This document shows, one piece after another, positions 1 to 56,878 of a DNA stretch of 64,000 nt. Position 1 is the stretch's first letter, and each line of letters begins with the position of its first letter. The position numbers and the translations under genes were made by a program. The notes under the pieces were generated by a model, which worked only from the letters and a program-made list of their open reading frames with translations, did not search any database and was not told where the DNA came from. The stretch is taken from NCBI RefSeq assembly GCF_964026535.1, contig NZ_OZ032153.1, positions 310,001 to 374,000 of the forward strand. Direction: 5' to 3'. Origin of the DNA: Candidatus Tisiphia endosymbiont of Sialis lutaria. Its GTDB lineage: Bacteria; Pseudomonadota; Alphaproteobacteria; Rickettsiales; Rickettsiaceae.

Positions 1-86
1 TAAGTGTACGCTCCGCTCGCTCACCCCTTGTTTTACGTTCCAATTCTCCAAATCATTTGAGTATATAATCTGCTGCTTTGAGTATA
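1..86 (-). repeat. Palindromic element G1, inside queC
   Basis: On the minus strand this reads TATACTCAAATGATTTGGAG and then GTGAGCGAGCGGAGCGTAC, matching the left half of the element at 14519-14645 almost base for base (one extra A). The right half lies beyond the window. A short copy of the outer end lies just upstream (about 68-86). The reading frame passes through it without a stop, as described for Rickettsia palindromic elements inside genes. Confidence 0.75.
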
Positions 87-363
87 GATCATTCTGTAAT
101 TCACTATGATCTTTATATTTTGGTACGTCTATGGCATTGTCAGTAAGAGCTGATCCGCCAAAGTTACGTAAATCAATATTTACAATTTTATGCTGTTTGA
201 TGTTATAGTTGTTAACTAATTGCTTAACCTTCTCCAGTTCAACATTATTGCGTTGAGAATAGTTGAAACTTATGGCATAAATTTCGTAATTCATTTTTTC
301 CATCATGGCTAGTACGGTAGCTGAATCTGCACCACCACTAACTAAAGCTACTGCCTTTTTCAT
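1..363 (-). CDS. queC: 7-cyano-7-deazaguanine synthase QueC, N-terminal part, with in-frame palindromic element
   Basis: This is the first 121 codons of a gene that runs off the left edge; ATG at 363-361, no internal stop. The start [19 protein letters not shown] carries the PP-loop ATP-binding motif SGGxDS, and [14 protein letters not shown] fits QueC/ExsB. QueC converts 7-carboxy-7-deazaguanine to preQ0 using ATP and ammonia, in queuosine synthesis. From about residue 97 the protein stops looking like QueC: the family has YVPARN near here, but this protein reads [17 protein letters not shown]. That stretch is the coding version of the palindromic element also seen in the spacer at 14519-14645. 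The ORF stays open through it to the edge, so this is either an in-frame insertion or an early stage of gene decay. The family call is firm; functionality is unknown. Confidence 0.8.
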
Positions 364-4886: not shown

Positions 4887-4925
4887 ATAAACGCAAAATT
4901 TGTCATTCCCGCGTAGGTACATAGG

Positions 4926-5198
4926 CCACAACTGTTGAAAGTTAGAAGAGGAAGCGGGTTTTAGATAGGTTTTCTGTCATTGCGAGACCACGTAGTGGTC
5001 GTGGCAATCCATCTTTGGTTACTTTTATGGATTGCTTCGTCGACCTAAGGTCTTTCTCGCAATGACGTTGACCACATACGATTTTTAAACTATCCGGTCT
5101 AAAACCGCTTCCTCTTCTAACTTTCAACAGTTGTGGTCTCGCAATGACAGAAAACCTATCTAAAACCCGCTTTACCTTCTAACTTTCAACAGTTGTGG
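4926..5198. repeat. Composite palindromic element A, copy 1, with an extra end
   Basis: An outer inverted repeat begins CCACAACTGTTGAAAGTTAG and ends with its reverse complement at 5136; an R1 hairpin (about 4976-5066) sits between the arms. A second right arm follows directly (5137-5198), as if two copies had recombined. Copies 2 and 3 are at 20784-20996 and 42111-42321, about 211-213 bp each, with the same R1 centre, once in the opposite orientation. No gene here; the minus-strand frame is repeat read-through. Confidence 0.8.
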
Positions 5199-5200
5199 TA

Positions 5201-5687
5201 CATAGGCGTCAGCTTAAGAAAATAAGTCGTCATTACGAGCCACCGTAGGTGGCGTGGCAATCTATTTCTAATCACTTTTCTGGATTGCTTTGTCGACCTT
5301 ACGGTCTCCTCGCAATCTGATATATCCCCACGAAATTGTTGCAAAATAGCAAGAATTGATAGAATATCATCATTATTTAATGATGATGGAGATAGTAGGT
5401 TATGGATGTAAAAACAGTATTAAATGATTGGGTTATAGGTGTGGTAGGCTATAGCCAAGGTATGCAAAGAATTTTCCAACCTAACACAGTAAAAGATAAA
5501 AAAATTTATTCGTATTGTACTCTTGGGAAATTTATTATTGAATTTAATTATTTGCATGCCATAAAACCATTGGTAGAACCCCTTCATCTATTATAAAGAC
5601 GGAGCTTTGTCATGCTTAATTTCGTGGGGATATATCAGCTCGCAATGACGGTTTTTCAATTATTGTTTTCTTAAACTAACGCTTATG
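5201..5687. repeat. Element H copy with R1 centre, split by an insertion
   Basis: Outer arms CATAGGCGTCAG...AAGAAAATAA and its inverse at 5660-5687 enclose an R1 hairpin starting at about 5228. The R1 right arm is cut at 5316 by the 322-bp insertion described separately and resumes at 5639. Without the insertion and its duplication the element is about 157 bp, close to the copies at 13501-13666, 37400-37570 and 54378-54544. Confidence 0.7.
5317..5638. mobile_element. 322-bp inserted element with terminal inverted repeats and 8-bp target duplication
   Basis: The element begins CTGATATATCCCCACGAAAT and ends with the exact inverse ATTTCGTGGGGATATATCAG. It interrupts an R1 hairpin, and the 8 bases CTCGCAAT occur on both sides (5309-5316 and 5639-5646), as expected of a target-site duplication. 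It contains one open frame (5402-5596, 64 aa) that resembles no transposase I recognise, so it is most simply a non-autonomous MITE or a deleted insertion sequence. An 8-bp duplication is compatible with several IS families and does not identify one. Confidence 0.8.
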
Positions 5688-14349: not shown

Positions 14350-14676
14350 ACGAGTTCTCCTTTATAGTATTAAGTATTTATAGGTAATACTATACATTAC
14401 TTGTTTTGTGTTTGCAATCCATGTTATAGTCAATCGATGAGAGACAACGTTACCAACTTCTCATTATTTATAAAATTATTACTAATAAAGCTTAGTGCAG
14501 ATTATAATTGTTGTATACTATACTCAAATGATTTGGAGAATTGGAACGTAAACAAGGGGTGAGCGAGCGGAGCGTACATGAAGTACGTGAGCACGCGAAT
14601 ACCCTGAAGTTTTACGGAGCCAATTCTTCAAAGCAGAAGAGTATACATAAATATAACAATTTGACCTAATAGCAAA
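14350..14676. repeat. Spacer upstream of polA with palindromic element G2
   Basis: 14429-14470 is a fragment of element C. 14519-14645 is a full G element: TATACTCAAATGATTTGGAG on the left, AAAGCAGAAGAGTATA on the right, and GAGCGAGCGGAGCGTACATG in between. It is the complete form of the sequence that lies inside queC at the left window edge. The polA promoter must lie in or next to this repeat. Confidence 0.75.
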
Positions 14677-20628: not shown

Positions 20629-21052
20629 ATTGTAAATCCTGTAGTTTAATTATTGTGTTATCCATACTAATGTTTTATGTCACCCCTACTCTCTTGTCAC
20701 CACTACTCATCTTGTCACCACTACTCATCTTGTCATACCTACTCTCTTGTCATACCTGCGTAAGCAGGGGTCTAGATTCCACACCACAACTGTTGAAAGT
20801 TAGAAGAGGAAGCGGTTTTAGACCGGATAGTTTAAAAGTCGTATGTGGTCAACGTCTATTAGCGAGAAAGACCGTAGGTCGACGAAGCAATCCACAAAAG
20901 TAACCAAAGATGGATTGCCACGACCACTACGTGGTCTCGCAATGACAGAAAACCTATCTAAAACCCGCTTTACCTTCTAACTTTCAACAGTTGTGGTTCC
21001 ACACCGAAGCGGGAATGACAGAAAGTCAGATGTCATGTATGGACGGTTATTA
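20629..21052. repeat. Spacer with short tandem units and composite element A copy 2
   Basis: 20690-20760 has an 18-bp unit (CTTGTCACCACTACTCAT) twice, with degenerate flanking copies, derived from the tail of an R2 repeat. 20784-20996 is element A copy 2 with an R1 hairpin in its centre whose left arm has the variant start GTCTATTAGCGAG. The frame at 20655-20903 is repeat read-through. Confidence 0.7.
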
Positions 21053-37634: not shown

Positions 37635-38745
37635 GTGCGTGCTGAAATTGAACATTATGTAAAAAAAATCGAACAGTCTTTAGAGCTGCTCAGGAGGTCA
37701 CTTTGATTTTGATAACGCAACCAAAAGGCTTGTAGAGCTGGAAAATATATCAGAATATCCAACTTTGTGGGATAATCAGGAAAAGGCTCAAAATATTCTG
37801 AAAGAAAAAAGACTTCTAGAGACTAAACTTAATTCGTTTAAACAACTTCAATCTAATCTTACGGAATGTTTAGAACTTGAGGAATTGGCGTTTGCCGAAA
37901 ATGACCAGCAAGTTCTAGAACAAGTTCAAGAAGATTTAAGAAAACTATCTATTATTGCCGGAAAATTTGAGACTGAATGCTTATTTTCTGGGGAATTTGA
38001 CAGTAATAATTGTTTTCTTGAAATCAATGCTGGAGCTGGCGGTACGGAGAGTCATGACTGGGCATCAATTATGATGCGTATGTATTTGCGTTTCGCGGAA
38101 AGACAGGGTTTTAAAAGCGAAGTTATTCATCTTATTAACGGTGAAGAAGCAGGAATAAAATCATGTACTATTAAAATTAATGGCTACCAAGCATATGGTT
38201 GGTTTCGAACAGAATCAGGAGTGCACCGTTTAGTACGGATATCGCCTTTTAATGCAGCGGGCAAAAGGATGACTAGCTTTGCTAGTAGTTGGGTATATCC
38301 AGAAATTGATGATAGTATTGCAATTGTAATAGATGAAAAAGACCTTAGAATTGATACTTACCGTTCTTCCGGAGCTGGGGGACAACACGTAAACACTACT
38401 GATTCTGCCGTAAGGATTACCCACTTACCTACTAATATCGTAACACAGTGCCAAAATGATAGATCACAGCATAAGAACAAAGCACAGGCTATGAAAATGC
38501 TTAAAGCAAGGCTTTATGAACTAGAGTTAAAAAAACGTACTGAGGATATTCAAGAACAGAATGCATCAAAAACTGAGAATGGCTGGGGACATCAAATAAG
38601 ATCTTATGTATTGCAACCTTATCAAATGGTTAAGGATTTACGTACCAATCATGAGACTTCTGATACTAAAGGTGTACTTGACGGAGATTTAGAAAAATTT
38701 GTTTCAGCTAGCCTATCAATTAGTGTTGGTAATATATATAGTTAA
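37635..38745 (+). CDS. prfB: Peptide chain release factor 2, programmed +1 frameshift
   Basis: RF2 (369 aa after the shift) releases peptides at UGA/UAA. Frame 0 begins at GTG 37635 (VRAEIEHYVKKIEQSLELLR) and stops at TGA 37704-37706. The slippery CTT TGA is preceded, three bases away, by AGGAGG (37692-37697), the internal Shine-Dalgarno that drives +1 shifting in bacterial RF2. Frame +1 continues FDFDNATKRLVELEN to 38745. SPF (ISPFNAAG) and GGQ (SSGAGGQHVN) motifs are intact. The last residues NIYS* lie in the terminal repeat of element C, so the native C-terminus has been altered. Confidence 0.97.
37692..37707 (+). promoter_or_regulatory. RF2 frameshift signal
   Basis: AGGAGG, three bases, then CTTTGAT. 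Low RF2 slows termination at this UGA and favours the +1 slip, so RF2 regulates its own synthesis. Confidence 0.93.
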
Positions 38746-38843
38746 TTCAGGAGAATTTGGTGCTAGGAACGATGGAGCGACGCCTATAAGTAATAGGCAA
38801 GCGACGAGTGACGACGTCACCAACTTCTCATCAATTGACTATA
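38737..38843. repeat. Element C, full copy 1
   Basis: 107 bp with ends TATAGTTAATTCAGGAGAAT and ...CTTCTCATCAATTGACTATA. The centre has the palindrome GCCTATAAGTAATAGGC, and the right part has GTGACGACGTCAC. The left end overlaps the prfB stop. Copy 2 (56690-56796) has the same length; copy 3 (54335-54599) is interrupted; copy 4 starts at 63952. Confidence 0.85.
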
Positions 38844-38945
38844 GTTAATTTAGGATAGATTGGCTATATATAATTAAGAAACGTGCTAAAATGTCTATAT
38901 TTCAAAGAGAAATATAAAATACTATGGATATTTTCTTATCCTTTG

Positions 38946-41969: not shown

Positions 41970-42660
41970 CTATCTCACCTTACGCATAACCCAGAATAAT
42001 TTAAAAATTGCAAGACGTCTATTAGCAAGGAGCTACTTTATTAGCATTGAAGCAATCCAGAAAGCGACCAAAATGGATTGCCACGACCACTATGTGGTCT
42101 GGCAATGACGCCACAACTGTTGAAAGTTGGAAGAGGAAGCAGTTTTAGACCAGGTAGTTTAAAGTCATATGTGGTCAACGTCATTACGAGGAAGACCGTA
42201 GGTCGACGAAGCAATCCATAAAAATTAACCAAAAATGGATTGCCACGACCACTACGTGGTCTCGCAATGACAGAAAACCTATCTAAAACCCGCTTTACCT
42301 TCTAACTTTCAACAGTTGTGGCAATGACGCATAAGCGTCAGTTTAGGAAAATAATAATTGAGAAACCGTCATTGCGAGGAAGACCGTAGGTCGACGAAGC
42401 AATCCATAAAAAGTAACCAAAGATGGATTGCCACGACCACTACGTGGTCTCGCAATGACGCATAAGCGTCAGCAATTAAGAAAACAATAATTGAGAAACC
42501 GTCATTGCGAGGAGACCGTAAGGTCACGAAGCAATCCATAAATTGTCATCCCTATTTAATTCAGTGTCATCCCTGCGAAGGCAGGGATCTATACTAGACT
42601 CCCGCCTAGGCGGGAATAACAACTTGCTCAACTTTATGTTGATTAACTATAAAGAACAAT
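41970..42660. repeat. Large repeat cluster between rpe and the autotransporter
   Basis: In order: an R1 (about 42016-42110), element A copy 3 (42111-42321) with an R1 centre, an H arm (42326-42367), an R1 (about 42368-42460), a second H arm (42461-42500), an R1 half (42501-42543) and an R2 (about 42547-42611). Adjacent H arms in direct order suggest duplication of an H[R1] unit. No gene is present in these 690 bp. Confidence 0.75.
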
Positions 42661-49030: not shown

Positions 49031-49375
49031 TATAGTCAATTGCTGAACTAGTGCCGAATAAGCACCCATCGTGCTGTCATTGTGCATAAGTGTCAGTTGA
49101 CGCCTATGTGTCATTGCGAGGAGACCGTAAGGTCGACGAAGCAATCCAGAAAAGTGATTAAAAATGGATTGCCACGCCACCTACGGTGGCTCGCAATGAC
49201 GCATAGTCAGTTATTGAAAAACCGTCATTGCGAGGAGACCGTAAGATCGACGAAGCAATCCAGAAAAGTGATTAAAAATTGATCGCCACACCACCTACGG
49301 TGGCTCGCAATGACGCTGATGCTAAATACTAACCGGATTTATAACGTTGCCAATTAAAGTTAATTCACTAATATA
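49031..49375. repeat. Element D with two nested R1 hairpins and an H remnant
   Basis: Left end TATAGTCAATTGCTGAACTA, right end ...AAAGTTAATTCACTAATATA with the inner D block CTAAATACTAACCGGATTTA. Between them: an H remnant (CATAAGTGTCAGTTGACGCC), then R1 units at about 49110-49201 and 49223-49312. Both R1 copies have the same tips, so the second is probably a duplicate of the first. Confidence 0.75.
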
Positions 49376-56449: not shown

Positions 56450-56878
56450 GTGTTCCTTTCAACTATAATATCCATTATACTACTTTTTTATTGTCCACTA
56501 ATAGCTAATTAGCAAAATTTTTATAATTTTTTGTTTTTTTATAGTGAATTAACCTGAATTAACACCCAGTACGATATAATTATGCAGCCTTAGAAAATGT
56601 TATAATTTCAGTGCCGTTGGTAGTTGTTATGTGCAACTCCGCTTTATCCACCTGGCTCGGTATAAAAATCTTTCCGCCCAAATGAAATTTATAGTCAATT
56701 CAGGAGAATTTGGGGCTAGGAGCGATGGAGCGACGCCTATAAGTAATAGGCGAGCGACGAGTGACGACGTCACCAACTTCCCATCAATTGACTATATATT
56801 CAAATTTCTTTTGAACAACCTACTATTTATAAGCTCTATAAAAAACTTGATTATGGAGTATTACTATTTCATCTATTT
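56450..56878. repeat. Spacer with D end, gene fragment, element C copy 2 and F end
   Basis: 56540-56575: D end. 56580-56689: a coding fragment listed separately. 56690-56796: full element C (107 bp). 56797-56860: element F right half (ATTCAAATTTCTTTTGAACA... to CTTGATTATGGAG). Junctions are base-to-base, so repeats have inserted next to each other. Confidence 0.7.
56580..56689 (-). pseudogene. C-terminal fragment of an unknown gene
   Basis: On the minus strand one frame reads GGKIFIPSQVDKAELHITTT followed by NGTEIITFSKAA and a stop. It begins exactly where element C ends, so the rest has been removed. I cannot name the family. Confidence 0.3.

Follow-up and report, generated by a model that had tools for sequence, protein, structure and literature searches.

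The left end of the analysed DNA raises the question of whether a palindromic repeat lying inside queC, a gene of the queuosine pathway, has been accommodated in the reading frame or marks the loss of the gene. The stretch analysed (hereafter the window, 64,000 nt) corresponds to positions 310001-374000 of contig C1 in a single-contig genome of 1,459,252 bp (G000), from a Torix-group Rickettsia ("Candidatus Tisiphia"). The 5' part of queC, encoding 7-cyano-7-deazaguanine synthase, occupies window 1..363 on the minus strand, as assigned from the TIGR00364 and PF06508 profiles, the ORF and the relatives. The complete gene spans genome positions 309530-310363 (L023:3531-4364) and thus extends about 470 bp past the left edge. 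A preliminary description, made from the window only, had seen an unbroken frame run from QueC sequence into the repeat and had proposed a leftward extension, in which a stop or frameshift without any later QueC sequence would indicate gene decay. The frame, which begins with the ATG at window 363, indeed contains no internal stop or frameshift until its end some 470 bp outside the window, and QueC homology picks up in frame right past the element and continues to the cysteine motif. As the frame is open to a normal stop, the signs of decay are not found. The predicted QueC is 277 aa long, a 49-aa in-frame insert included. In profile scans, it matches TIGR00364 (1.3e-53, exceeding the model cut-off) and PF06508 (7.6e-71), in two stretches each, and its core motifs SGGxDS, VPARN, YPDCR and CGxCxxC are all intact. 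The PP-loop motif, the zinc cysteines, the family profile and the fold are therefore all those of a QueC, the best PDB matches of its structural model being QueC 3bl5 and 2pg3.

The insert has two parts. In the coding direction, a 23-bp scar, TATACTCAAAGCAGCAGATTATA (window 64..86, minus strand), which reads YSKQQII, is followed by a 128-bp palindromic element, TATACTCAAATGATTTGG...CCAATTCTTCAAAGCAGAAGAGTATA, with a TA common to both. The element lies at genome positions 309938-310065 and encodes 42 residues in frame; its first 65 nt are in the window (1..65, minus strand). The single element initially drawn over window 1-120 has consequently to be redrawn: 1-65 is element, 64-86 is a separate scar of the same family and 87-120 is ordinary QueC sequence. 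The insert was correctly located near the conserved YVPARN region, as it lies just before the VPARN motif, and its repeat was correctly described as the coding version of an intergenic one at window 14519..14645 (plus strand; 127 nt, thus lacking one base, and with a closed coding frame), to which it is 93% identical. This intergenic copy sits upstream of an ORF that is presumably polA, a name given from the reading of its start. Other near-full-length copies in the same genome match the queC element at E = 1e-20 or lower, and there are more than 250 matches in 15 of the 16 genomes of the genus, so that a chance resemblance is excluded.

How such an element enters a gene was deduced from 124 copies, gathered from fetched stretches mainly by DNA similarity. 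Eighteen of them, some being orthologous copies of one insertion, were compared with orthologous sites without the full element. Of these 18 filled/empty comparisons, 14 show a net gain of exactly 126 bp (42 codons), the remaining four giving 123 bp twice (a boundary indel), 129 bp (a 131-nt copy) and 105 bp (a full element compared with a scar). The dinucleotide of the empty site is TA at no fewer than eight independent sites, and CA, AT, GA or GG at the others. As empty sites are mostly TA and the net gain is 126 bp, a target TA is filled as TA-element-TA. The consensus, 128 nt long and thus within the 100-150 bp of dispersed palindromic repeats of the Rickettsia palindromic element (RPE) kind, folds as a single long hairpin (-60 kcal/mol), whose 32 pairs are kept at 98% over 95 copies. 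Compensatory cells (76) exceed those of all 500 shuffles (mean 13), a result that is supportive rather than a proof, as the shuffles ignore relatedness. A parental insertion sequence was sought between two family ends lying 1.3 kb apart, from lpxK to past the next gene, and this interval contains host genes and a scar only.

Fifty-five of the 124 copies are genic, as judged from ORF length and flanks, and all of these are 128, 131 or 134 nt long; their net gains are therefore multiples of three, and conserved genes carry them in frame, as with RPEs. About 50 in-frame copies other than that of queC lie in ORFs that read, from their translations, like aminoacyl-tRNA synthetases, uvrC, mutL, ligA, dnaE or atpG. 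All genic copies but one (54/55) use one frame and orientation, the exception using the same-phase frame of the opposite strand in an ORF reading like transketolase; when copies with shared flanks are merged, the bias is 49 out of 50 (p = 9e-14). It is not explained by stops, as the used frame is open in 110/124 copies and the same-phase opposite-strand frame in 109/124. Neither is it explained by peptide conservation, since the nonsynonymous/synonymous ratio is 1.09 in genic copies vs 1.29 in non-genic ones, with similar values for the opposite-strand frame. Purifying selection on the insert peptide was thus considered and left unsupported, the ratio being about 1. The simplest guess is that the reverse peptide is harmful.

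In the genus, the 49-codon insert is present in 2 of 15 queC sequences, those of G000 and of the symbiont of Labidopullus (Lappe4, taken to be G006). RiCNE (G001), recognised by its shared 30-mers as the Rickettsia endosymbiont of Culicoides newsteadi, which belongs to the same species as G000, has seven extra codons at the same point, TATACTCAAATCATTTGAGTATA, a near-perfect palindrome. The other 12 sequences, one of which (G009) is incomplete at its start, have no insert at this site; the genus also includes the symbionts of Pseudomimeciton (Pante1, presumptively G008) and Culicoides impunctatus (RiCimp, presumptively G003). Between G000 and Lappe4, the host part of queC shows 8 synonymous and 2 nonsynonymous changes, vs 2 and 7, respectively, in the insert; for the whole gene, dN/dS from G000 is 0.15 to Lappe4 and 0.39 to RiCNE. 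These counts, with only 10 host substitutions, are suggestive of purifying selection on the host codons, and not on the insert, since the insertion. One could propose that the insert is instead a selected peptide, an exapted domain giving QueC a new property, given the orientation bias and the fact that copies are recognisable across two genera. The near-equal ratios of genic, non-genic and opposite-strand frames, the mostly nonsynonymous changes of the queC insert, its presence in two sequences out of 15 and its predicted disorder nevertheless make this proposal barely credible. A tolerated passenger agrees better with these data. In queC (L023, L058), a short tract lying about 100 bp from the insertion site, upstream in the coding direction, has about 7 bases at which RiCNE differs from G000 and G000 is identical to Lappe4; on either side of it, G000 and RiCNE are almost the same, and the tract possibly results from recombination next to the insertion.

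Does such a QueC still work? The preliminary description had offered two outcomes, a tolerated surface loop or the loss of queuosine synthesis. The first is favoured by the substitution pattern of host and insert, by the AlphaFold2 model, in which the insert is a low-confidence coil (pLDDT about 30) and most core blocks exceed 80, and by the long open frames of queF and tgt in G000. Conservation of the queuosine pathway is high among Rickettsia (PMC5615194), and a translated RPE in R. conorii guanylate kinase leaves an active product with a changed substrate affinity (reviewed in PMC2229807). Outside the window, the queF of G000 (L273; genome 19.4-20.3 kb, minus strand) was itself found to carry a 35-codon in-frame RPE2 insert, missing from RiCNE, Lappe4 and RiCimp. 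Its empty site GAAGA-TA-ATACG is filled as GAAGA-TATAG...CTATA-ATACG, with a net gain of 105 bp and the same TA rule. Two consecutive enzymes of the pathway therefore carry palindromic inserts, which could reflect a relaxed selection on the pathway and counts against a simple toleration.

It might be asked whether queC is on its way to becoming a pseudogene: the insertion would have abolished QueC, too recently for the frame to have closed, and queuosine would no longer be made or would be obtained by salvage. The reductive genome of the symbiont, the RPE2 insert in the queF of G000 and not of RiCNE, and the lack of the full insert in RiCNE, of the same species, would fit. However, the insert is common to a second species, Lappe4, where the host part of queC is intact too, there is no stop or frameshift, and host changes are mostly synonymous. 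Moreover, the other genes that carry in-frame copies (ORFs reading like aminoacyl-tRNA synthetases, dnaE and others) can hardly all be dead. We thus regard the pseudogene as improbable, and consider it highly probable that the insertion is selfish and tolerated, in a still functional queC, as a predicted disordered loop produced by an element at TA together with an older scar.

The scar brings in a second type of event. The 23-bp unit corresponds to a net 21 bp, i.e., 7 codons, and TATACTCAAAKCANNNGAGTATA, allowing at most one mismatch, is found in 12 of 16 genomes, the reversed control being found in 0. There are several units per genome, some of them intergenic, and the units found within long frames share the same phase. 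Full elements can apparently collapse to such scars, as judged by sequence comparison: in lpxK, a full element in Pante1 is replaced at the identical base by a 23-bp scar in G000 and Lappe4, and both arms of the element contain a TCAAA repeat, between which a deletion of 105 nt (35 codons) leaves the scar sequence. In gltX, the scar is alone in one genome (G012) and followed by a full element in another (G005), which parallels queC in RiCNE and G000. Both right-arm variants, GCAGAAG and TCATTTG, are present among full copies; the scar of RiCNE queC has the other variant from that of G000, and therefore does not derive from the G000 arrangement by deletion alone. A single open frame of 418 aa (L124; G013:C1:786419-786504) contains four tandem scar units with a 21-bp period, YSKQKSI three times and then a TCATTT variant.

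The 23-bp units could alternatively be an independent mini-element inserting alone, a proposal that bears on the scars only. Their abundance, their intergenic occurrence and the tandem of three identical units and a variant would be in its favour. On the other hand, the insertion of an element into a pre-existing unit would give a unit plus an element, and not the exchange of one for the other at an identical lpxK position in different species; furthermore, the unit sequence is the one predicted from the TCAAA deletion, and both arm variants occur in full copies. A mini-element is consequently rather unlikely, and we prefer the collapse of full elements.

What, then, is this family? Rickettsia palindromic elements RPE1-RPE8 were reportedly described by Ogata and colleagues in 2000 and 2002, and the preliminary description had likened the repeat to in-frame palindromic elements of Rickettsia. 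This holds as to kind, given the palindrome and the in-frame genic copies, but not as to identity with RPE1, RPE2 or RPE3, the families compared here by their NCBIfam models. The queC insert gives zero matches to NCBIfam models in six frames and to Pfam in the coding frame. RPE1 (TIGR01045) matches 33 sites in G000, queC not being among those listed, and queC has no hmmscan match to it at E 1 or 10. RPE2 (TIGR03774) matches 141, none at queC; RPE3 (TIGR03775) has none in G000, where the positive control is also silent, and no hmmscan match for the queC peptide. A family profile built from 15 peptides, searched in 85 Rickettsiaceae genomes of 24 genera, finds the family in 33 genomes and 2 genera, with up to 58 matches per genome in the Torix genus and 1-5 matches in 18/23 genomes of the second, which apparently includes Rickettsia sp. 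MEAM1. Within this one family of bacteria, it is thus restricted to Rickettsia and close relatives, as are RPEs.

Like RPE1-RPE8 (reviewed in PMC2229807 and PMC10969869), the family is a dispersed palindrome of about 130 bp with intergenic and in-frame intragenic copies, a conserved-peptide coding frame and no recognised transposase of its own. Unlike RPE1-RPE3, it matches no NCBIfam model and, unlike RPEs generally, whose target duplication is given as "?" (PMC2229807), it has a measured target and 126-bp net gain, and frame-preserving 7-codon scars. It also resembles TA-terminated bacterial MITEs (Correia, ERIC, RUP), which are short inverted-repeat elements ending in 5'-TA-3' and showing a target-site duplication. 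Each of the six frames of RUP contains stops (PMC2229807), whereas the present family leaves the frame undisturbed in one phase and is read in a single orientation. Among the papers searched, no study joining a palindromic element, Rickettsia and queuosine was found, nor were descriptions of this family, of queC as a host gene or of 7-codon remnants. The nearest case comes from spotted-fever Rickettsia, where RPE-4/RPE-7 has inserted in queA (PMC3767692, Table 1); this is also an in-frame palindromic insertion in a queuosine-pathway enzyme (tRNA ribosyltransferase-isomerase), but in another gene, with another element family and in another genus. The in-frame palindromic insertion is therefore of a known kind; the element family and the host gene would be new.

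All these results can be assembled into a history in which a palindromic element of the RPE kind, similar to MITEs, would have entered the queC of a Torix-group Rickettsia; the family inserts mostly into TA dinucleotides and lengthens the site by a net 126 bp. As 126 is a multiple of three and each strand keeps one long frame open in the phase NTA-TAC, a right-phase insertion adds 42 residues without truncation. queC would have been hit twice: an older copy would have shrunk to the 23-bp scar of 7 codons, and a full copy would then have entered at its terminal TA, giving 49 codons in total, an order of events that we infer. QueC would remain functional, with a disordered loop immediately ahead of VPARN, the insert being a passenger and not a selected domain. 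More generally, a frame-neutral transposable palindrome could edit proteins in steps, adding 42 codons at TA, losing 35 by TCAAA-repeat deletion and leaving 7 that can take a new copy, a scheme to which we give even chances. If true, the gain, collapse and re-insertion of protein loops would be a recurrent and polymorphic process in Torix Rickettsia, with a one-orientation rule. Palindromic elements lying in frame within genes have long puzzled Rickettsia genomics; here a target (mostly TA) and a net length of 42 codons have been measured, and a route of decay is proposed. Within-species polymorphism, clean empty sites and scars together make it possible to test how selfish DNA can lengthen a protein and leave it alive, on near-identical pairs such as the QueC forms having or lacking the insert.

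The window contains other repeats. Those at 38734-38844 and 56687-56797 have a translation resembling the RPE2 peptide (NSGEFGARSDGATPISNRRA...), and many of the RPE2 matches of this 1.46-Mb genome are inside long open frames. Dense, dispersed repeats of the GTCATTGCGAGG...CAATGACG type, with inverted copies of up to 151 nt, are found at window 4925-5316, 20783-20996, 42070-42509 and 49109-49316, among others.
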